A stretch of 44,772 bases of DNA from contig JANXMB010000015.1 in assembly GCA_025354865.1 (NCBI GenBank), positions 1 to 44,772 of the forward strand, given 5' to 3'. Of this stretch, positions 6,882-42,933 are shown in pieces. The notes beneath the pieces are model-generated. The model had not been told where the DNA came from, did no database searches, and worked only from the letters and a program-made list of their open reading frames with translations. The position numbers were made by a program, and so were the translations under genes. Within the stretch, counting starts at the first letter, position 1. Every line of letters begins with the position of its first letter. This DNA comes from Acetobacteraceae bacterium (GTDB taxonomy: Bacteria > Pseudomonadota > Alphaproteobacteria > Acetobacterales > Acetobacteraceae).

Positions 6882-7025
6882 TTAATCGGCCCGGCGCGTG
6901 GCAGGCTCCGCCACGCGCACAGCGGCCGCAAGGTCCCAAATATCGGCCGGGCGGAACGGCACGGTGGGATCGTTCAACAGACGGTCGAGTTCCTGCAATT
7001 TCCGTTCGAGATCAATGGCGAGCAT
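6882..7025 (-). CDS. Small conserved protein, copy 1
   Basis: 47 codons beginning MLAIDLERKLQELDRLLND. The sequence is mostly charged helix followed by PFRPADIWDLAAAVRVAEP. I do not recognise the family. That it is a real gene is supported by its duplicate at 9173-9316: same length, and within the coding part only two residues differ (Ala27/Val, Arg37/His) while most other base changes are silent. There is no signal peptide or membrane segment. It converges on the MaoC-like gene, with its stop 15 bp past the MaoC stop. Confidence 0.6.
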   Translation of the reverse strand: MLAIDLERKLQELDRLLNDPTVPFRPADIWDLAAAVRVAEPATRRAD

Positions 7026-7054
7026 AACGGTTGTCCAACTGTGTTGCGTTGCCG
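6882..7054. repeat. Left copy of a 173-bp direct repeat (carries a 47-codon gene)
   Basis: This segment aligns without gaps to 9173-9345. I count 11 differences in 173 positions (about 94% identity). The copies are in direct orientation and flank a 2.1-kb segment of lower GC content. Just outside the repeat both sides also share GACCGATCGG (6872-6881 and 9145-9154), with extra bases between it and the gene on the right. Confidence 0.9.
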
Positions 7055-9134: not shown

Positions 9135-9174
9135 AGACCGCGATGACCGATCGGATACGATCGCATCGCGGTCT
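9135..9174. repeat. Perfect hairpin, possible member of the GCGAT/ATCGC palindrome family
   Basis: AGACCGCGATG (9135-9145) and CATCGCGGTCT (9164-9174) form a perfect 11-bp stem around an 18-nt loop. The arms resemble the tail hairpin at 28583-28616 (GGGCTGCGAT / ATCGCAGTCC) and its nasA counterpart. It abuts and partly overlaps the end of the right-hand small gene copy (stop at 9173-9175) and is absent at the left copy. Confidence 0.6.
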
Positions 9175-9316
9175 AATCCGCCCGGCGCGTGGCAGGCTCC
9201 GCCACGTGCACAGCGGCCGCAAGGTCCCAAATATCGACCGGGCGGAACGGCACGGTGGGATCGTTCAACAGACGATCGAGTTCTTGCAATTTCCGTTCGA
9301 GGTCGATGGCGAGCAT
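9173..9316 (-). CDS. Small conserved protein, copy 2
   Basis: 47 codons, the duplicate of the gene at 6882-7025, differing at two residues (Val27, His37). The open frame continues upstream of the chosen ATG at 9316 for about 57 codons, but similarity between the two loci ends soon after the ATG, so the short start is preferred. The family is unrecognised. This copy lies between the low-GC segment and the tRNA-Gln gene and may be the original locus, since the tRNA side is ordinary chromosome; that is inference. Confidence 0.6.
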   Translation of the reverse strand: MLAIDLERKLQELDRLLNDPTVPFRPVDIWDLAAAVHVAEPATRRAD

Positions 9317-9345
9317 GGCGGTTGTCCAACTGTGTTGCGTCGCCG
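9173..9345. repeat. Right copy of the 173-bp direct repeat
   Basis: Partner of 6882-7054, ungapped, about 94% identical. Homology starts at the stop codon of the small gene and stops about 29 bp upstream of its ATG, after which the two loci are unrelated. Confidence 0.9.
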
Positions 9346-9513: not shown

Positions 9514-9587
9514 TGGCTGGGGGACCTGGATTCGAACCAAGGATGCCCGGGTCAGAGCCGAGAGTTTTACCGCTAAACTATCCCCCA
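9514..9587 (-). tRNA. tRNA-Gln (anticodon CUG)
   Basis: 74 nt folding as a full cloverleaf. The acceptor stem is TGGGGGA/TCCCCCA, discriminator G73, with encoded CCA. The D arm is GTTT-AGCGGTA-AAAC. The anticodon arm is CTCGG-CTCTGAC-CCGGG with anticodon CTG at positions 34-36. The T arm is CTTGG-TTCGAAT-CCAGG. The U1-A72 pair and G73 are identity features of glutamine tRNAs. Confidence 0.95.
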
Positions 9588-12066: not shown

Positions 12067-12938
12067 GCGTGCGCCCCCATGGCCAGATCCATCAGCACCC
12101 GGCCGAGTTCGGTCTTGCCCAACCGGCTTGCTTGTTCCTTCAACCGGTCGGCGTCGATGAAGCCCATGCGGAACGCGACCTCCTCCGGGCAGCCGACCAA
12201 CATGCCGGTGCGGGATTGGATCGTTTGCACATAGGTCGCCGCTTGCAGCAAGCTGTCCGGGGTGCCGGCATCGAGCCACGCATACCCGCGTGAGAGCTTG
12301 TCCACCATCAGCGTCCCGGCTTCGAGATAGACGCGGTTGAGGTCGGTGATTTCCAACTCGCCGCGCGCGGAGGGGGCGATGCGCGGGGCGATGTCGCTGA
12401 CCTGTTTGTCGTAGAAATAAAGGCCGGTGACCGCCCAGTTCGACTTCGGTTGCGGCGGCTTTTCGACGATCTCGGTGGCCTGCCCGTCCGCCCCGAACGA
12501 CACCACGCCATAGCGTTCGGGATCGCGGACCTGATAGGCGAAGACCGTCGCGCCGAGGGGCCGAGCGGCGGCTTCGCGCAAAAGGGCGGAGAGATGGTCG
12601 CCGTGGATGAGGTTATCGCCCAGTGCCAGCGCGCAAGCCTCCCCGCCGATCCAATCGCGCGCGATCAGGAACGCCTGCGCGATGCCGTCCGGGCTGGGCT
12701 GTTCGGCATAGGCAAAGCGCACGCCGAAGCGGCTGCCATCGCCCAGCAGGCGGCGGAACTGCGGCAGATCCTCGGGCGTGGAGATCAGCATGATGTCCTG
12801 GATGCCGGCCAGCATCAGGGTGGACAGCGGATAATACACCATCGGCTTATCGTAGACCGGCAGCAATTGCTTGGACGCGGCCATAGTCATGGGATGCAAT
12901 CGTGTGCCGGAACCCCCAGCCAGGAGAATACCTTTCAT
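12063..12938 (-). CDS. rfbA: Glucose-1-phosphate thymidylyltransferase
   Basis: 291 aa. Makes dTDP-glucose from glucose-1-phosphate and dTTP. The nucleotidyltransferase signature GGSGTRLHP at residues 8-16 and the [12 protein letters not shown] block are present, as are [12 protein letters not shown] (metal Asp), [19 protein letters not shown] and the C-terminal GRGYAW-like segment (here [15 protein letters not shown]). Length matches RmlA. It lies 37 bp after rfbB and overlaps rfbC. Confidence 0.95.
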
Positions 12939-22321: not shown

Positions 22322-23140
22322 ATGATTCCCTCCCACCTCCAGCCGCCGGCTTTCGATCGGGGATCGGTGTGGCTGGTCGGGGCCGGACCCGGCGATCCCG
22401 GGTTGCTTACCCTGCATGCGGCCCACGCCCTGACCGAAGCCGACATCGTCCTCCACGACGCGCTGGTGTCCGACGATGTGTTGTCCCTCGCGCCGCAAGC
22501 CATTCTGGAATCCGTCGGCAAACGGGCTGGCGGGCGGCGCACCCCGCAACTGCGGATCAACCAGCGGCTGATCGACCTCGCGCGCCAGGGCCTCAAGGTC
22601 GTGCGGCTGAAAGGCGGCGATCCCCTGACATTCGGGCGCGGCGGGGAGGAAGCTCTCGCGCTCGCAGCGGCGGGAATCCAGTTTCGCTTCGTGCCCGGCA
22701 TCGGCGCCGGCATCGGCGGCACCGCCTCGGCCAGCATTCCGACCACGCATCGCGGCCTCGCCCGCTCGGTTGCCTTCGCCACGGGCCACGATTCCAGCGG
22801 CCAACTGGCCGACATCGACTGGGCATCGCTTTCGAAAGGGGCCGAGGTCCTGGTCCTGTACATGGCACAACGCCGGATCGGCGCCATCGCCGAGCATTTG
22901 ATCGCCGCCGGACGGCCGCACACCGAGCCGGTGGCGCTGATCGCGCATGCCAGCACGGCACGCCAGACCGTTGTTATTACGACTTTGCTCGATGCCGAGC
23001 GGGATGCGGCCATGGCGGGTTCGCCACTGCTGATCGTGGTGGGGCCGGTGGTCGCGCTGCGCCCGCTGCTCGCGCCCTGGCAGCAAACCGAACCCATGAC
23101 GGTCCGCGCCGCTGTGCGCCAGACACGAAGGAACGCCTGA
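22322..23140 (+). CDS. cobA: Uroporphyrinogen-III C-methyltransferase (SUMT), copy 1
   Basis: 272 aa. Uses two S-adenosylmethionines to methylate uroporphyrinogen III to precorrin-2, the precursor of siroheme and cobalamin. GAGPGDPGLLT is at residues 20-30, the DxxxYD-equivalent is ADIVLHDALVS, and VVRLKGGDPLTFGRGGEEAL and GIGAGIGGTASASIPTTHRG follow. Only the methyltransferase domain is present (no CysG dehydrogenase part). The ATG at 22322 is chosen; an in-frame TTG at 22259 would add 21 residues without a visible ribosome site. Its stop overlaps the cysJ start (TGATG). In this operon it feeds siroheme to the sulfite reductase CysI. Confidence 0.9.
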   Translation: MIPSHLQPPAFDRGSVWLVGAGPGDPGLLTLHAAHALTEADIVLHDALVSDDVLSLAPQAILESVGKRAGGRRTPQLRINQRLIDLARQGLKVVRLKGGDPLTFGRGGEEALALAAAGIQFRFVPGIGAGIGGTASASIPTTHRGLARSVAFATGHDSSGQLADIDWASLSKGAEVLVLYMAQRRIGAIAEHLIAAGRPHTEPVALIAHASTARQTVVITTLLDAERDAAMAGSPLLIVVGPVVALRPLLAPWQQTEPMTVRAAVRQTRRNA

Positions 23141-28340: not shown

Positions 28341-28356
28341 GCTATTTCCCCCTTAA

Positions 28357-28580
28357 GCGCGATGACCGGAGGTGGAATCACCGGAGGTCTGAATCGCGCG
28401 ACCTAACATAGAGCGCGATGACCGAAGGTGGAATCACCGAAGGTCCGAATCGCGCGACCCAACATAGCGCGCGATGACCGGAGGTGAAATCACCGGAGGT
28501 CTGAATCGCGCGACCCAACATAGCGCGCGATGACCGGAGGTGAAATCACCGAAGGTCCGATCGCGCGACCGACCAAAGCG
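28357..28580. repeat. Tandem array of four 56-bp hairpin-forming repeats
   Basis: Units start at 28357, 28413, 28469 and 28525, an exact 56-bp period. Each folds on itself: GCGCGAT pairs with ATCGCGC, GACC with GGTC, and GGTG with CACC around a 4-nt loop (GAAT or AAAT). The symmetric internal loops are GGA/GGA or GAA/GAA; unit 2 has the change in both arms. Units differ at only a few positions. The array fills the hyuB-CDGSH gap together with the tail hairpin. There is no unique spacer between units, so this is not a CRISPR. Confidence 0.92.
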
Positions 28581-28582
28581 TT

Positions 28583-28616
28583 GGGCTGCGATAGGTAAGC
28601 GTACGCATCGCAGTCC
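28583..28616. repeat. Tail hairpin of the repeat array
   Basis: GGGCTGCGAT (28583-28592) pairs with ATCGCAGTCC (28607-28616) with one G-T wobble, around a loop containing the palindrome GCGTACGC. It lies 4 bp beyond the hyuB stop codon. A related tail follows the single repeat inside nasA (38287-38326). Confidence 0.75.
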
Positions 28617-28620
28617 GGTA

Positions 28621-36917: not shown

Positions 36918-37721
36918 CTACGCCGCCAAACGCTCCAGCGCCGTCCGCTCCTCGGCCAGACCGACGACTGCGCCGATCAGCACCAGGGTCGGGCCGACGA
37001 AACCGGCCTTTGTCAGTGCCGCCGGTAAATCCGCCAGCGTGCCGAACAGCCGCCGCTCGTTCGGGCGGGCGGCGTTCTCCACCGCGACCGCCGGCGTAGC
37101 ACCAGACATGCCCGCCGCGATCAGCCGTTCCGCCACCGCCGGAAGCGTCCGACCCGCCATGTAAGCAGCCAGGGTGCCGCCGGACCGCGCCAAGGCCGCC
37201 CAGTCGTGGTTCGGCAGGCTACCATCGCTGCCATGGCCGGTGACGAAATGCAGGGAGCGGGACATATCCCGATGGGTCAGCGGAATTTGCAATGAGGCTG
37301 CGGCCGCACAGGCGGCGGTGACGCCCGGCACGACCGCGACCGGGACGCCGGCCAGACGCAGGGAATCCAACTCCTCCCCGCCGCGCCCGAACACGAGGGG
37401 GTCGCCGCCTTTCAGCCGCACGACATGCGCACCGGCCAGTGCTTCTTTTACAATCAATCGGTTGATGGCGGTTTGTTGCATGGCGTGTCGGCCGCAGCGC
37501 TTGCCGACATCGATCCGCCTTGCGCCGATCGGTGCGAGGTCGAGGATCGCGGGATCGATCAACGCGTCGTACAGCACGACATCCGCCGACTGGATCGCCC
37601 GCACGGCGCGCACCGTCAGCAGATCGGCGTCCCCCGGACCCGCACCGACCAGGGTTGCACGCCCCAATCGGGCCAGGGTTACGCCGACTGGGCCTGTTTC
37701 AACTGGCGGGCATGCGGACAT
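36918..37721 (-). CDS. cobA: Uroporphyrinogen-III C-methyltransferase (SUMT), copy 2
   Basis: 267 aa, methyltransferase domain only. LVGAGPGDADLLTVRAVRAI, ADVVLYDALIDPAIL, HVVRLKGGDPLVFGRGGEEL and PGVTAACAAAASLQIPLTHRD are the SUMT blocks. It is clearly divergent from copy 1 at 22322. The ATG at 37721 lies inside the end of nasA (23-bp overlap), so it is the last gene of the nitrate operon and likely supplies siroheme precursor for nitrite reductase. A later in-frame GTG (VGVTLARLG) is a possible alternative start. Confidence 0.9.
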   Translation of the reverse strand: MSACPPVETGPVGVTLARLGRATLVGAGPGDADLLTVRAVRAIQSADVVLYDALIDPAILDLAPIGARRIDVGKRCGRHAMQQTAINRLIVKEALAGAHVVRLKGGDPLVFGRGGEELDSLRLAGVPVAVVPGVTAACAAAASLQIPLTHRDMSRSLHFVTGHGSDGSLPNHDWAALARSGGTLAAYMAGRTLPAVAERLIAAGMSGATPAVAVENAARPNERRLFGTLADLPAALTKAGFVGPTLVLIGAVVGLAEERTALERLAA

Positions 37722-40437
37722 CGCGCAGAATCTCCTCGATCTCGGGAATGCAAGACCCGCAATTGGTGCCGGCGCGCAGCCGCACGCCGATTTCGGCGAC
37801 GGAACGCAACCGGTGGGTGACGGCCGCGTGCCGAATGGCGTCGCGGGAGACGGCGAAACAGGCGCAGATCCGCGGCCCCTCCGACATTGTCCCGGCATCG
37901 CCCCGCCCGGCCAGCAGACGCGCCCGTCCGGCGTCGGGGATCGCGGTGCCGAGGATGGGGACGACGGCGGCCTCGGAGGGAAGACCCACGGGGTTGCGGG
38001 CCAGAAACAAGCAGGCCTCTAGGACCCCATCGACCAGGATGGCCACACGCAGCATACCGCGTGCCGGGTCGGCGGCCTCGATCCAGTCCGCAGCAGGCGG
38101 CGGGTCCAGCAGCACGCGGGCGAAGCGATCCAGATCGTCCCCGGTCGGCATCGCCCGCAGGCCGGTCAGGCGAAACAACTGCCCGGTGTCCACCGGCACC
38201 CGCACCCAATGGCAGATATCCGGTAACGCGCGATGATCGGAGGCGGAATCGGCGGAGGTCTGAATCGCACGATCCAACAACGGGTTGGACTGCGATACGG
38301 GCGCGAACGCGAACGCATCGCGGTTCAAAGCCAAGCCAGACCGCCGCAGCAGCAATCCGTGGAAATGGGTGGCGACCGGGGACAGGCTGACCGGGGTCGC
38401 CTTGGTTTCCGGCTGCCCCGACACCGGGTCCACGCGCGCGCTCACCGCCCGACCGATCGGCCCGGTGGATGCGAACAGATCGGTCCAATGCATCGGGGCG
38501 AAAACCTCCCCGCGCCGCTGGGTATGGCGGAGGTCGGCGCGCAGCACGACCTCCCCCTCATCGGTGGACAGCCGCACGAGAGCGTTGGGTTCGATGCCCA
38601 AGGCGGCGGCATCGGCCGGGTGCAAGGTCGCCAGCGGTTCGGGGGTGTGCGCCATCAGCGACGGCGCCAACCCGGTGCGAGTCATGGTGTGCCACTGGTC
38701 GCGCACCCGCCCGGTGTTCAACAGGAAGCCGTGTCCGCCGCGATCCGGCAGGCCCTGGAACGGGGTGGGCACGCAGCGCGCTTTGCCGTCTGGGGTCGGG
38801 AATCCGCCCTCGGCGAACAGGCGCCCGCCCTCCTGCGTCGCCCCCGCCGGCAGCGGCCAGCGCACCGGCTGCATCGCGTCGTAGGCGGCGTCGTCCCCAT
38901 CCGCCAATGCGCCGATGTCGAACACCCGGCGCCCCGCATTCTCGAACCCCGACAAAGCGGCGTGCTCGCGGAACACGGCGGCGGGGCTTTCCCAGGCGAA
39001 GGCGGCTTCCCAACCCATCCGCCGGCCGACCTCGGCGAACATCCACCAATCGGGCCGAGCCTCGCCGGGCGCGGGACGGAAGGGGCGCTGGCGGGAGATG
39101 CGGCGTTCGGAGTTGGTGACGGTGCCATCCTTCTCCCCCCAAGCGGCGGCAGGCAGGACCACGTCGGCGTAGACCGAGGTATCGGTCGGCCAGCAATCCG
39201 ATACCGCGACGAAGGGGCATGCGCTCAACGCCGAGCGCACCCGATCTGCGCGCGGCAGGCTGTCGGCGGGGTTGGTCGCGACGATCCACAGCGCCTGGAT
39301 TTTCCCGGCAGCCACGGCTTCGAACAGTTCCACCGCTTTCAGGCCGGGTTTCGGGGTCAGGGCCGGCGCCTGCCAGAACCGGGTCAGCGCGTCGCGATCG
39401 GCGGGATCGTCGAATTTCATGTGCGCGGCAAGCTGGTTCGCCAAGCCCCCGACCTCCCGCCCGCCCATCGCATTGGGCTGGCCGGTGACCGAGAACGGCC
39501 CCATGCCCGGCCGCCCGATCCGCCCGGTGGCAAGATGGCAGTTGACGATGGCGTTGACCTTGTCGGTCCCGACCGAGGACTGGTTTACCCCCTGCGAATA
39601 CACTGTCATGACCCGTTCGGTGCGGGCGAACATCTCGAAGAAGATCTCCACCAACTCCGGATCCAGGCCGCAGCGCGCGGCGGTTTCCTCGATATCGTCC
39701 GGGCCGGCGGCGGCGATTGCGGCGCCCAGGCCGGCGGTATGGCGGGCGGTCCAATCCCGATCAACCCGTCCCGCCGCATGAAGAAATGCCAGCAACCCGT
39801 TGAATAAGGCAACATCGCTGCCGATGGTGAGGGGCAAGTGCAGATCGGCGGCCTCGGCCGTCGCGGTGCGGCGGGGATCGAGGACGACGATCTTCGTCCC
39901 CCGCGCCGCCTTCGCCGCCAGCAGCCGTTGATGCAGCACCGGATGGCACCAGGCAGCATTGCTGCCGACGAGGACCACGAGATCGGCTTCCTCCCAATCC
40001 TCGTACACCCCGGGCACGATATCCTCCCCGAAGGCGCGATTGTGCCCGGCAACCGAGGACGCCATGCACAGGCGGGAATTGGTGTCGATATTGCCGCTGC
40101 CGATGAAACCCTTCATCAGCTTGTTGGCAACGTAGTAATCTTCCGTAAGACATTGCCCCGACACGTAAAAGGCAACGCTATCCGGCCCGTGGCGCTCGAT
40201 CGTGCGGCGGAATTTGGCGGCGATCAGCCCCAACGCGTCGTCCCACGATGCCGGCTTGCCGCCGATCTGGGGTTGGGTCAGCCGCCCGCTGTCGTCCAAT
40301 GTCTGCGCCAGCGCCGCCCCCTTCGAGCAGAGCCGCCCGCGATTGGCGGGATGCGCGATATCGGCGGCGATGGCGCCGTCGGGTCTCGCGACGACGCCGC
40401 AGCCGACACCGCAATACGGGCAGGCGGTGTGGATCAT
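37699..40437 (-). CDS. nasA: Assimilatory nitrate reductase catalytic subunit with C-terminal [2Fe-2S] domain
   Basis: 912 aa molybdenum enzyme reducing nitrate to nitrite in the cytoplasm. The 4Fe-4S ligands are Cys6, Cys9, Cys13 and Cys37. The bis-MGD region shows GRLCSKGAALAQ, VYSQGVNQSSVGTDKVNAI, GRIGRPGMGPFSVTGQPNAM and MHWTDLFAS. A BFD-like [2Fe-2S] domain ends the protein with Cys858, Cys860, Cys893 and Cys896, as in Klebsiella NasA. Residues about 705-737 are an extra 33-residue insertion encoded by a palindromic repeat related to the array at 28357. The ATG at 40437 overlaps the FAD subunit stop. Length and frame are otherwise normal. Confidence 0.94.
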   Translation of the reverse strand: MIHTACPYCGVGCGVVARPDGAIAADIAHPANRGRLCSKGAALAQTLDDSGRLTQPQIGGKPASWDDALGLIAAKFRRTIERHGPDSVAFYVSGQCLTEDYYVANKLMKGFIGSGNIDTNSRLCMASSVAGHNRAFGEDIVPGVYEDWEEADLVVLVGSNAAWCHPVLHQRLLAAKAARGTKIVVLDPRRTATAEAADLHLPLTIGSDVALFNGLLAFLHAAGRVDRDWTARHTAGLGAAIAAAGPDDIEETAARCGLDPELVEIFFEMFARTERVMTVYSQGVNQSSVGTDKVNAIVNCHLATGRIGRPGMGPFSVTGQPNAMGGREVGGLANQLAAHMKFDDPADRDALTRFWQAPALTPKPGLKAVELFEAVAAGKIQALWIVATNPADSLPRADRVRSALSACPFVAVSDCWPTDTSVYADVVLPAAAWGEKDGTVTNSERRISRQRPFRPAPGEARPDWWMFAEVGRRMGWEAAFAWESPAAVFREHAALSGFENAGRRVFDIGALADGDDAAYDAMQPVRWPLPAGATQEGGRLFAEGGFPTPDGKARCVPTPFQGLPDRGGHGFLLNTGRVRDQWHTMTRTGLAPSLMAHTPEPLATLHPADAAALGIEPNALVRLSTDEGEVVLRADLRHTQRRGEVFAPMHWTDLFASTGPIGRAVSARVDPVSGQPETKATPVSLSPVATHFHGLLLRRSGLALNRDAFAFAPVSQSNPLLDRAIQTSADSASDHRALPDICHWVRVPVDTGQLFRLTGLRAMPTGDDLDRFARVLLDPPPAADWIEAADPARGMLRVAILVDGVLEACLFLARNPVGLPSEAAVVPILGTAIPDAGRARLLAGRGDAGTMSEGPRICACFAVSRDAIRHAAVTHRLRSVAEIGVRLRAGTNCGSCIPEIEEILRDVRMPAS
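38228..38326. repeat. Palindromic repeat inserted in frame inside nasA
   Basis: The first 50 bp match the 56-bp unit at 28469 at about 85% (GCGCGATGA opening, AGGTCTGAATCGC block). It continues into a tail like 28581-28616 (GTTGGACTGCGATA, then GAACGCATCGCGGT). The 99-bp length is a multiple of three, so the nasA frame is kept. It encodes about 33 Ala/Ser/Asp-rich residues between a conserved LLRRSGLAL and ICHWVRVPV, where related nitrate reductases have no such segment as far as I recall. Confidence 0.78.
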
Positions 40438-41702
40438 GACGCCACCGCCAGCTCGGCGGCGACGGGATCGCTCGCGCCCCCCTCCGGCGGCGGCCCGAAC
40501 ACCAGCAAATCCCGCTGTTCGGCGATATCCGCAGCATCCAGGATAAGCCCGAAATACCATCCGGCATCGCTGGCATCGCCGTATAGCACCGCACCGATCA
40601 GCCGATCGTCGCGCAGGACCAGCTTCTTGTGCACGCCTGCGGCGGCGTCGCGGTAGACAACGGTTTCGGTCGTGTCGTCGCCCACGAAATCGCCGGCCGA
40701 GAACATGTCGATCCCCGTCACCTTCAAGCGTGTGCCCGACACCGCCGGCCGGTAGTCGGTTTCGGCAACTTCGGAAATCCGGTCGGCCGCGACCTTCGCC
40801 ATGTCCCACAACGGCGCCACAAGGCCGAACAGCGCGCCGCGATGTTCCACGCATTCGCCCACCGCATAGATCGCGGGATCGGACGTGCGCATGCCGTCGT
40901 CGACGACAATGCCTCGGTTGCACGCCAAACCGGCGTCGCGGGCGAGGGCAGCGGCCGGGCGGATGCCAACCGCCATCACCACCAGATCGGCCGGCAGAAC
41001 GGTGCCATCGGCGAGTTGCACTGCCTCCACCCGATCGGTGCCGAGGAACGCGGCGGTGTTGGCCTGCAGGATGGTGCGCAGGCCCCGGTCCACCAGATCC
41101 GCCCGCAGCATCTCGGACGAGACGGGATCGAGTTGGCGTTCCATCAGACTGGGCATCAGATGCAATACGGTGGTGTGCATACCGTTGCGCAGCAGGCCGT
41201 TCGCCGCCTCCAGCCCCAACAGGCCGCCGCCGATCACCACCGCGTTGCCGCCGCCTTGTCCCGCCGCCGCGATCATGGATTCGACATCGGCGATATCGCG
41301 GAAGGCAACGACGCCCGGCAGCTTATGCCCTGGGATGGGCAGAACGACCGGCGTGGACCCGGTCGCGATCAGCAGCACATCGTACGGGCGAACGCTGCCC
41401 AGCGCCCCGGTGACGGTGCGGGCGTCGCGATCGATGGCGACGGCCGCTTCCCCGGCGATCAACGCGATCCCGTTGCTGCGGTACCAATCGCGGTCGTGGG
41501 TGACGATATCGGCGAACCGCTTCTCCCCGGCGAGGACCGGCGACAGCATGATCCGATCGTAATTGCCATGCGGTTCCGCCCCGAACACCGCAATGTCGAA
41601 CCGATGCGGTGTGCGTTGCAGGATTTCCTCCAGCGTGCGGACGCCGGCCATACCGTTGCCGATAAGGACCAGCCGCCGGCGCCTGGGTGCGATGTGGTTC
41701 AT
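40434..41702 (-). CDS. Assimilatory nitrate reductase FAD/NAD(P)H electron-transfer subunit (NirB N-terminal-like)
   Basis: 422 aa pyridine-nucleotide-disulfide-type oxidoreductase. FAD motif LVLIGNGMAGVRTLEEIL near the N-terminus, VLLIATGSTPVVLPIPG, the NAD-binding NAVVIGGGLLGLEAANGL, and YAVGECVEHRGALFGLVAPL typical of the NirB/NasC/NasB FAD module. It lacks the siroheme and 4Fe-4S part of NirB. It corresponds to NasC of Klebsiella (called NasB in Bacillus), which feeds electrons from NADH to nitrate reductase. It overlaps nasA by 4 nt and starts 22 bp after the transporter gene. Confidence 0.9.
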   Translation of the reverse strand: MNHIAPRRRRLVLIGNGMAGVRTLEEILQRTPHRFDIAVFGAEPHGNYDRIMLSPVLAGEKRFADIVTHDRDWYRSNGIALIAGEAAVAIDRDARTVTGALGSVRPYDVLLIATGSTPVVLPIPGHKLPGVVAFRDIADVESMIAAAGQGGGNAVVIGGGLLGLEAANGLLRNGMHTTVLHLMPSLMERQLDPVSSEMLRADLVDRGLRTILQANTAAFLGTDRVEAVQLADGTVLPADLVVMAVGIRPAAALARDAGLACNRGIVVDDGMRTSDPAIYAVGECVEHRGALFGLVAPLWDMAKVAADRISEVAETDYRPAVSGTRLKVTGIDMFSAGDFVGDDTTETVVYRDAAAGVHKKLVLRDDRLIGAVLYGDASDAGWYFGLILDAADIAEQRDLLVFGPPPEGGASDPVAAELAVAS

Positions 41703-41724: not shown

Positions 41725-42933
41725 TCAAACCCGCGCCGCGCCGTAAAGCTCGGTCCAAGTCGTGCGCCAACGGTTGCGCACTGTGCCGATGCAGACCAAT
41801 GCCACGGCGGCGAGACCGGCGAAGATCAGGAAGCCCGGGCCGTAGCTGCCGGTGAGCTGCTTGGAATAGCCGAGGCTGGACGCGAGGTAGAACCCGCCCA
41901 GGCCGCCGGTCATCCCGACCAGACCGGTCATGACCCCGATCTCCCGCCGGAAGCGCTGCGGCACCAACTGGAACACCGCGCCGTTGCCCATGCCCAGGCA
42001 GAGCATCCCGATCAGGAACACCGGCATGGCCAGCGCCAGCGCCTGGATGCCGGTGCTGATGGTCGCGAAGGCGCACGCCGCCACCGCGTACAGGATGGTG
42101 AGCGCGCGCACTCCGCCGAACCGATCCGCCACCGCGCCGCCGAGGGGCCGCACCATCGAGCCGACGAACACCACCGCCGCCGTGCAATAGCCCGCCACTA
42201 CCGGGCTGACCCCGTATTGGTCGTTGAAGTAGATCGTCAGCGAGGAGGCCAGCCCGACGAAGCCGCCGAAGGTCACGCTATAGAAGAACATGAACCACCA
42301 GGCGTCGGCGACCTTCAGCAGATCGAGGTAGGCGGCAAAGGATTTGCGCGGCGCCGGATTCGGGCTGTCTTTGGAGAACACGACGAACACCAGCAGGGCA
42401 ATCGACAGCGGAATGGCGGCCAAACCGATCACATTCTGCCAACCGAAAGCCAAGGCCAGACCGGGCGCAAACAACGCCGCCAACACCGTCCCCGAATTCC
42501 CCGCCCCTGCCAAACCCAAAGCGGTGCCCTGATGCTCGGGAGGATACCAGGCCGAGGCCATGGGCAGCGCAACGGCGAAGGACGCGCCAGCCAAACCGAG
42601 GACGCAGCCCACGATCAACGTTGCCTCGAAGCTTTGGATGCCGATCGTCCAGGCCGCCAGCAGCCCGACAATCACGACGATCTGCGCGCCGATGCCGACC
42701 CGCTTCGGCTTGTAGCGATCGACCAGCACACCGATCAGCACCCGCAGCACGGCACCGGCCAGCACCGGGGTTGCGACCATCAGCCCCTTATGGGCGGGAT
42801 CGAGATGCAGTTGTTTGGCAATGGCGACGCCGAGCGGGCCGAGGAGCACCCAGGCCATGAAGCTGAGGTCGAAATAGAGGAAGGCCGAGAACAATGTCGG
42901 CAGATGGCCGGCTTTGAGAAAACCTTTGTGCAT
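41725..42933 (-). CDS. NarK/NasA-type nitrate/nitrite MFS transporter
   Basis: 402 aa with twelve predicted membrane segments. LLGPLGVAIAKQLHLDPAHKG, GLAGASFAVALPMASAWYPPEHQGTALGLAGAGNSGTVL (the nitrate signature region) and GMGNGAVFQLVPQRFRREIG are hallmarks of the nitrate/nitrite porter family. The ATG at 42933 gives MHKGFLKAGHLPTLFSAFL; a GTG at 42990 would add 19 residues. First gene of the operon that continues with the FAD subunit, nasA and SUMT. A sigma-54 promoter lies about 130-146 bp upstream of this ATG. Confidence 0.93.
   Translation of the reverse strand: MHKGFLKAGHLPTLFSAFLYFDLSFMAWVLLGPLGVAIAKQLHLDPAHKGLMVATPVLAGAVLRVLIGVLVDRYKPKRVGIGAQIVVIVGLLAAWTIGIQSFEATLIVGCVLGLAGASFAVALPMASAWYPPEHQGTALGLAGAGNSGTVLAALFAPGLALAFGWQNVIGLAAIPLSIALLVFVVFSKDSPNPAPRKSFAAYLDLLKVADAWWFMFFYSVTFGGFVGLASSLTIYFNDQYGVSPVVAGYCTAAVVFVGSMVRPLGGAVADRFGGVRALTILYAVAACAFATISTGIQALALAMPVFLIGMLCLGMGNGAVFQLVPQRFRREIGVMTGLVGMTGGLGGFYLASSLGYSKQLTGSYGPGFLIFAGLAAVALVCIGTVRNRWRTTWTELYGAARV

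Follow-up and report, generated by a model that had tools for sequence, protein, structure and literature searches.

Palindromic element within nasA

The DNA analyzed here is a 44,772-bp stretch (the window) of an Acetobacteraceae bacterium (assembly GCA_025354865.1, contig JANXMB010000015.1; genome G000 below), in which nasA, a gene for an assimilatory nitrate reductase, holds a copy of a short palindromic element within its reading frame. The features on which the argument rests are these:

37699–40437, minus strand: nasA, encoding a 912-residue molybdopterin assimilatory nitrate reductase with a C-terminal BFD [2Fe-2S] domain (Pfam)
38224–38327, plus strand: element copy within nasA, TA to TA, with two hairpins and both GANTC sites present
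38224–38325, minus strand as read: net insertion of 102 bp, equal to 34 codons (NasA residues 705–738)

Pfam domains were found in NasA at residues 2–47 (Molybdop_Fe4S4), 61–472 (Molybdopterin), 571–682 (Molydop_binding) and 857–905 (Fer2_BFD). The NCBIfam equivalog cut-offs for NasA and NasC were not reached (NasC: 392.9 of 1100 bits), and the name is therefore based on domains and context. The insert, with the pattern NRDAFAF...DHRAL, separates RRSGLAL from the PD that continues as PDICHW. It lies past residue 690, where the 60 listed relatives in the Protein Data Bank end, and before the BFD domain at 857. Its 34 residues would form a loop, probably exposed, in the linker that joins the catalytic body to the [2Fe-2S] domain, and the enzyme was probably left working. 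If the segment is translated, tryptic digestion is predicted to release the peptides DAFAFAPVSQSNPLLDR and AIQTSADSASDHR.

Empty sites are plentiful. Congener NasA proteins aligned at this position continue without the segment (for example RRTG-AAL-PD in genome G008), and at the DNA level exactly 102 bp are extra here relative to the ten congeners aligned. The segment is absent from all 79 of the named NasA loci that reach the site (80 were present among the genome contigs, and L177 stops short of it). The best segments of these loci are 48–82% identical to this NasA; the closest of them (82%, locus L139) has a clean empty site, and the G003 protein (L017) has a four-residue addition at the same place. 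An initial annotation of the window had described an in-frame insertion of the palindrome family seen in the intergenic array, and both the alignment and the search for the segment in distant NasA proteins bear this out, although the size given there (99 bp; 33 residues, 705–737) falls short of the 104 bp and 34 residues found here. Because the copy differs from the element consensus at 22 of 104 positions, it is no assembly slip from a near-identical repeat.

A dispersed 104-bp family

The repeat unit measures 104 bp from TA to TA (consensus TAGAGCGCGATGACC...CATCGCGATCTA) and folds into two hairpins. Its ends read TAGAGCGYGAT (TAGAGC...GCTCTA or ATCTA), and terminal inverted repeats are present (TAGAGCGCGATG against CATCGCG(A/C)TCTA), short and in many copies imperfect. 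The element is short, high in copy number and without a transposase. In its own genome it gave at least 46 blastn match rows (40 of 194 candidates scored), 123 matches in a pattern search against 0 for the reversed control pattern, and at least 143 covariance-model matches, a lower bound since 150 of 4044 candidates were scored. Of these 143, 86 sites were studied, those left out being mainly 56 lower-scoring matches, many of them array units; 50 of the 86 copies are exactly 104 bp long and 68 are near-full (100–108 bp).

A first sample, in which 24 of 59 genomes were positive (23/33 in the same genus, 0/2 in other genera of the family and 1/24 in other families of the class), suggested a distribution restricted to the genus. 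This was overturned by a family-wide sample of Acetobacteraceae, where matches were found in 88 of 200 genomes and 51 of 102 genera; covariance-model E-values being rough, the weakest of these 88 may be chance. The element had no match in the named plasmids searched, an Rfam scan of the window at the gathering score returned only tRNA, and a literature search found no published description of the 104-bp family.

An intergenic array of related units lies elsewhere in the window:

28353–28520, plus strand: three 56-bp left-half units (hairpin 1) in tandem
28521–28617, plus strand: degenerate full element copy ending the array

The 56-bp units of this array (28353–28617) correspond to the left half of the 104-bp element, and similar spacing was seen on contigs C65, C163, C171 and C187. 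As had been noted before, array and nasA copy share one orientation to transcription: both lie on the plus strand, while nasA and both neighbors of the array are on the minus strand.

The two hairpins covary strongly. When 29 copies drawn from 11 genomes were aligned (25 of 40 short congener stretches plus four G000 copies), 92.1% of cells were paired, and in 157 cells both sides had changed. No shuffle out of 500 scored as high, and sliding the partners by 1–3 columns gave at most 32, a comparison in which the derivation of the structure from G000 copies favors the true pairing. Such covariation would be expected if the element functioned as RNA or DNA, for instance as a 3' stem-loop, in mRNA stability or in GANTC/CcrM methylation, with the nasA copy as a by-product. 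The position of many copies directly 3' of genes fits this idea, as does the GANTC in the first loop of 62 of the 86 G000 copies and all ten G010 copies. However, the sequence of the second hairpin tends to be species-specific, so the covariation may reflect amplification by each species of its own palindrome as well as selection, and the loop GANTC is found in only 1/7 G015, 1/5 G018 and 0/6 G046 copies. We consider a function of this kind unlikely to account for the family.

Target site and candidate transposase

The left end is preceded by a pyrimidine in 55 of the 68 near-full copies and by G in 4, and the right end is followed by a purine in 65; immediately within the two TAs, G (54) and C (64) predominate. 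The difference between the outer bases, together with the prevalence of G and C within, indicates that the target is YTAR and that only the TA is duplicated. The same duplication appears in the 102-bp net gain of the 104-bp unit over the empty site of the ten congeners, and two full tandem copies share a single TA (C171:12059–12162 and 12161–12264). In nasA the element went into the Leu of AL-PD, where the upstream codon now reads TTG and the downstream one TTA. On the upstream coding side TA has become TG, and a C follows the downstream TTA, leaving the right-hand R of the target unmet in this copy.

Duplication of TA is the rule for elements of the IS630/Tc1-mariner group. An insertion sequence (IS) of this kind with matching ends is present in congener G042 (locus L309). 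It is 1060 bp long, with inverted ends TAGAGCGTGAT; the two termini, reading TAGAGCGTGATCG and TAGAGCGTGATTG, have T-TA and TA-A as flanks, and 11–13 bp are common to the element and the IS. In genome G000, an IS630 remnant (L221, one of three partial IS630 matches there) begins TAGAGCATGAT and is 72% identical over 321 bp from the first base of the G042 IS. A title cited in PMC2170065 also speaks of preferential transposition of an IS630-associated transposon to the TA in CTAG. The element is accordingly described below as a miniature inverted-repeat transposable element (MITE), for which an IS630-type transposase is the most likely mover on good, though not final, sequence evidence.

Intergenic bias, stop codons and reading frame

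Copies are concentrated outside genes. Among the 86 G000 sites, 83 are intergenic, two overlap the end or start of a gene, and one, that in nasA, is inside a gene, against about 70 in-gene sites expected if insertion were uniform over TA and about 35 if uniform over YTAR. Sites were classed with a purpose-built gene finder trained on the fetched stretches (coding fraction 0.867), an overlap of up to 45 bp still counting as intergenic. In congeners G010 and G015 all sites examined were intergenic (20/20 in each, the better-scoring 20 of 62 and 20 of 64 matches, respectively). Outside nasA, selection would therefore appear to keep the family out of genes. A search for other in-gene copies listed 36 long spanning frames, of which 20 were scanned with Pfam, and none had domains on both sides of the element. 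Two apparent cases were rejected: at L100 the element falls between the genes for a CoA-transferase and a ParA protein, and at L130 the start of the gene is most likely misplaced, its frame running into MAKTNTVQIKLIS, which we take to be the start of a ribosomal L33-like protein. At L058 (1543–1646; C113:100642–100745 in G000), a histidine kinase with PAS, HisKA and HATPase domains takes its last ~20 residues and its stop codon from an element copy, a C-terminal addition only.

Stop codons at the very edge of an element are common. At 31 of the 86 G000 sites the stop codon of a flanking gene starts exactly at the element edge. In all, 33 gene ends lie at offset 0 (18 left, 15 right; TAG 29, TAA 3 and TGA 1), two of them from weak gene calls; on neither side does another offset have more than 2. 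Stop codons were likewise found at the edge of 16/20 G010 and 8/20 G015 sites. Two of the 33 genes were checked against solved relatives and have full natural C-termini, the thiolase being aligned through its last residue and GcvT through residue 364–365 of 366. The coincidence follows from the target, since YTAR includes the stops TAG and TAA and the terminal TAG of the element restores the stop. The observed share in G000 (36%) exceeds the 24% expected from YTAR sites (p 0.008) and the 14% expected from all TA sites (p 3e-7), and target availability together with selection against gene damage explains most of the pattern.

Inside called genes, no YTAR falls in codon phase 0, where it would be a stop codon; 87 fall in phase 1 and 35 in phase 2. 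In phase 1 it forms the Leu codons CTA and TTA. The consensus has six readings, and only one of them, entered from a YTA codon in one orientation, stays open from end to end, as DRDAFALAHVSRSNLLFVRAIQTSGDSTFGHRAL. The nasA copy matches both this phase and this orientation. That in-gene targets are mostly Leu codons, with one orientation readable, explains how the nasA copy could keep the frame, and that nasA received exactly the open reading points to an insertion that was tolerated rather than selected.

One could go further and view the ends and the YTAR preference as a joint damage-avoiding device for which the family has been selected. In phase 0 the target would be met only as a stop codon, and whichever side the gene came from, a TAG end would restore its termination. 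Phase 1, which is the most frequent within genes, would make the target a Leu codon, and one orientation would be readable for 34 codons. A family of this kind would spread cheaply through gene-dense genomes and now and then donate protein sequence, as in nasA. We offer this as speculation, and doubt that it is correct.

Origin and fate of the NasA insert

Taken as a whole, the evidence makes it very probable that the nasA segment is a MITE copy, most likely moved by an IS630-type transposase, that entered in frame at a Leu codon of a linker and was tolerated rather than selected. In outline, a 104-bp MITE with a 2-bp TA target duplication and the ends TAGAGCGYGAT would have been moved by an IS630-family transposase into a YTA codon, in the sole phase and orientation that are open, adding 34 codons with the frame kept. 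Several observations weigh against parts of this account. The own genome, a 190-contig draft, gave three partial IS630 matches but no intact copy with these ends; among IS630 loci from eight congeners, the G042 one alone has such an end pair, and its transposase is split between frames; and the two MITE copies of G042 that were compared match the ends of the IS less well than the copies of G000 and G010 do. As to the coding history of the insert, the nasA copy has 11 third-position changes, 10 of which go from AT to GC; this suggests that it evolved as coding sequence. Other copies differ from it only weakly in this respect (p 0.04 to 0.10), however, and among 17 changed codons 11 are non-synonymous, so that purifying selection on the peptide is not evident. 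As the codon-position test gave only this weak GC-ward signal, selection on the peptide is not claimed.

Inserts were also found in other NasA proteins. That of L148 (genome G059) has a different in-frame insert of more than 80 residues in the same linker as the 104-bp element, and the G018 and G011 proteins have inserts near residue 246. These inserts contain a second palindrome, whole in G059 and G018 and in half in G011. It too is high in copy number: with the G018 insert as query, at least 92 match rows were obtained in G018, 70 in G011 and 44 in G059, and at least 14 in G017, 13 in G015, 1 in G012 and 1 in G010, with 0 in G000 (both strands of the palindrome are counted, and at most 40 candidates were scored per genome). 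The ends CGTCAT and ATGACG are both present in four of the five stretches L222–L226, of which L222 is the G018 nasA insert, and in L148; the CGTC-tagged inverted palindromes of G018, G011 and G059 (L222–L224) are ~85–90 bp long. CGTC repeats are reported as missing in Acetobacteraceae (PMC3733652). The second palindrome was rejected as the source of all NasA inserts: those of G017 (L151) and G012 (L173) near residue 246, in frame and ~35–50 residues long, match neither the palindrome copies compared nor the 104-bp element. The record of L148, labeled Nitrosovibrio sp. Nv4 (a metagenome-assembled genome), looks mislabeled, its NasA being 69% identical to the Acetobacteraceae protein studied here.

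That two NasA linkers in the group have taken up unrelated palindromes, the CGTC-tagged one lying in frame in the very linker of the 104-bp element, might be taken to mean that the added loop is adaptive and alters the regulation, stability or partner binding of NasA, and the GC-ward third-position changes would agree. Linkers, however, are where neutral insertions survive, and among the 80 named loci inserts of at least 12 residues at these two linkers are few (L148; L149, L151, L152, L154 and L173). With the non-synonymous changes noted above, this leaves adaptation of the loop improbable.

Relation to known repeats

The closest parallel is the RUP element of Streptococcus pneumoniae (107 bp; IS630-Spn1), which resembles the element in length, in its ~100 copies and TA target, in ends shared with an IS630-family element and in its mostly intergenic location (PMC2229807). 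RUP belongs to another lineage and has another sequence; the element described here differs further in its YTAR target and in ends that often fall on stop codons.

The initial annotation had likened the insert to Rickettsia palindromic elements (RPEs). Like them the element is palindromic, dispersed and readable in frame inside a metabolic enzyme (PMC10969869, PMC2229807). RPEs, however, are reported in many genes, with 44 integrations in R. conorii, nearly half of them in open reading frames with fusion potential (PMC10969869, PMC2229807), whereas the element has one internal copy among 86 G000 sites and none among 40 congener sites. Although 50 of 68 near-full G000 copies have a net length of 102 bp, and no stop interrupts the NasA frame in 49 of the 50 copies of exactly 104 bp or in 8/10 G010, 4/5 G018 and 3/4 G041 copies, a protein-coding family with an open frame and a length in multiples of three selected for spread inside genes is already mostly refuted and highly improbable, given the near absence of in-gene copies, a frame open in 0/7 G015, 0/2 G042 and 1/6 G046 copies (5/6 of the latter being 103 bp long), and a peptide not found in other predicted proteins. 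The last is a weak test, in which 5.8 billion proteins were searched, NasA itself was the only match among 25 candidates and none was found among 23; a peptide of 34 residues scores only when the match is almost exact. The CGTC tag of RPE-4 and RPE-6 is missing from the 104-bp element, while the second nasA palindrome carries CGTCAT/ATGACG. By its behavior the element is no RPE but works like RUP, as an IS630-linked MITE.

Repetitive extragenic palindromes (REPs) of the GTAG/CGTC type share with the element an intergenic location by 3' ends, with some copies inside open reading frames (PMC3733652). Their GTAG ends often supply a TAG stop, and two Xanthomonas species have a copy in recB at roughly the same position (PMC3733652). 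The element differs from them in that it has neither a GTAG nor a CGTC tag and carries TA duplications. The CIR repeats of Caulobacter are about 100 bp in length. They are, like the element, alphaproteobacterial intergenic stem-loop repeats with GANTC in the terminal loop (PMC2229807). In the same paper they are reported as never intragenic and as having stops in all frames, whereas the element has one frame open and one intragenic copy. A CIR-like methylation element was considered, but the loop GANTC is not conserved across species. QMITE1 and QMITE2 of Coxiella are likewise MITEs, from which neighboring genes obtain a stop codon or additional residues in frame (PMC5896051); they belong to a different host and are likened here by description only, not by sequence.

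Stop codons supplied by repeat ends and repeats within reading frames are thus known from GTAG/CGTC REPs, RPEs and QMITEs (PMC3733652, PMC10969869, PMC2229807, PMC5896051), and intragenic REPs and MITEs have been published (PMC3733652, PMC10969869). Intragenic REPs are on record from O. terrae, Thauera and Xanthomonas (PMC3733652), and enterobacteria have in-frame ERIC fusions (PMC2229807), so the nasA insertion is not the first case outside Rickettsia. It adds a new, well-documented instance to a type of event that other bacteria had already shown.

Neighboring genes and other repeats in the window

Genes flanking nasA are as follows:

36921–37667, minus strand: uroporphyrinogen-III C-methyltransferase, siroheme synthesis (TIGR01469, 291.7 bits, cut-off 185)
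40437–41702, minus strand: NirB-like FAD/NAD(P) reductase adjoining nasA (TIGR02374 positions 1–409 of 794, 442.8 bits, cut-off of 578 not reached)
41728–42933, minus strand: NarK-family nitrate/nitrite transporter (TIGR00886, 283 bits, cut-off of 311.7 not reached)

The presence of a NarK-type transporter, a NirB-like reductase and a siroheme methyltransferase beside nasA indicates an assimilatory nitrate cluster. A 53-bp inverted match (91%) joins 22598–22650 to 37372–37424; the latter arm falls in the uroporphyrinogen-III methyltransferase gene, and the former may lie in a paralogue. Two 172-bp direct repeats (6883–7054 and 9174–9345), 94% identical and 2291 bp apart, are found near a tRNA gene at 9517–9587.

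Implications

The family to which the nasA insert belongs is a mobile palindrome widespread in Acetobacteraceae, for which we found no earlier description. The nasA copy offers a testable case of transposon sequence turned enzyme sequence, with empty-site controls at hand in sister species. The entry of unrelated palindromes into the same enzyme in different species, once into the same linker, marks insertion-tolerant linkers in a molybdoenzyme. Finally, the pattern of stop codons at element edges explains in simple terms how such elements can persist where genes are densely packed.

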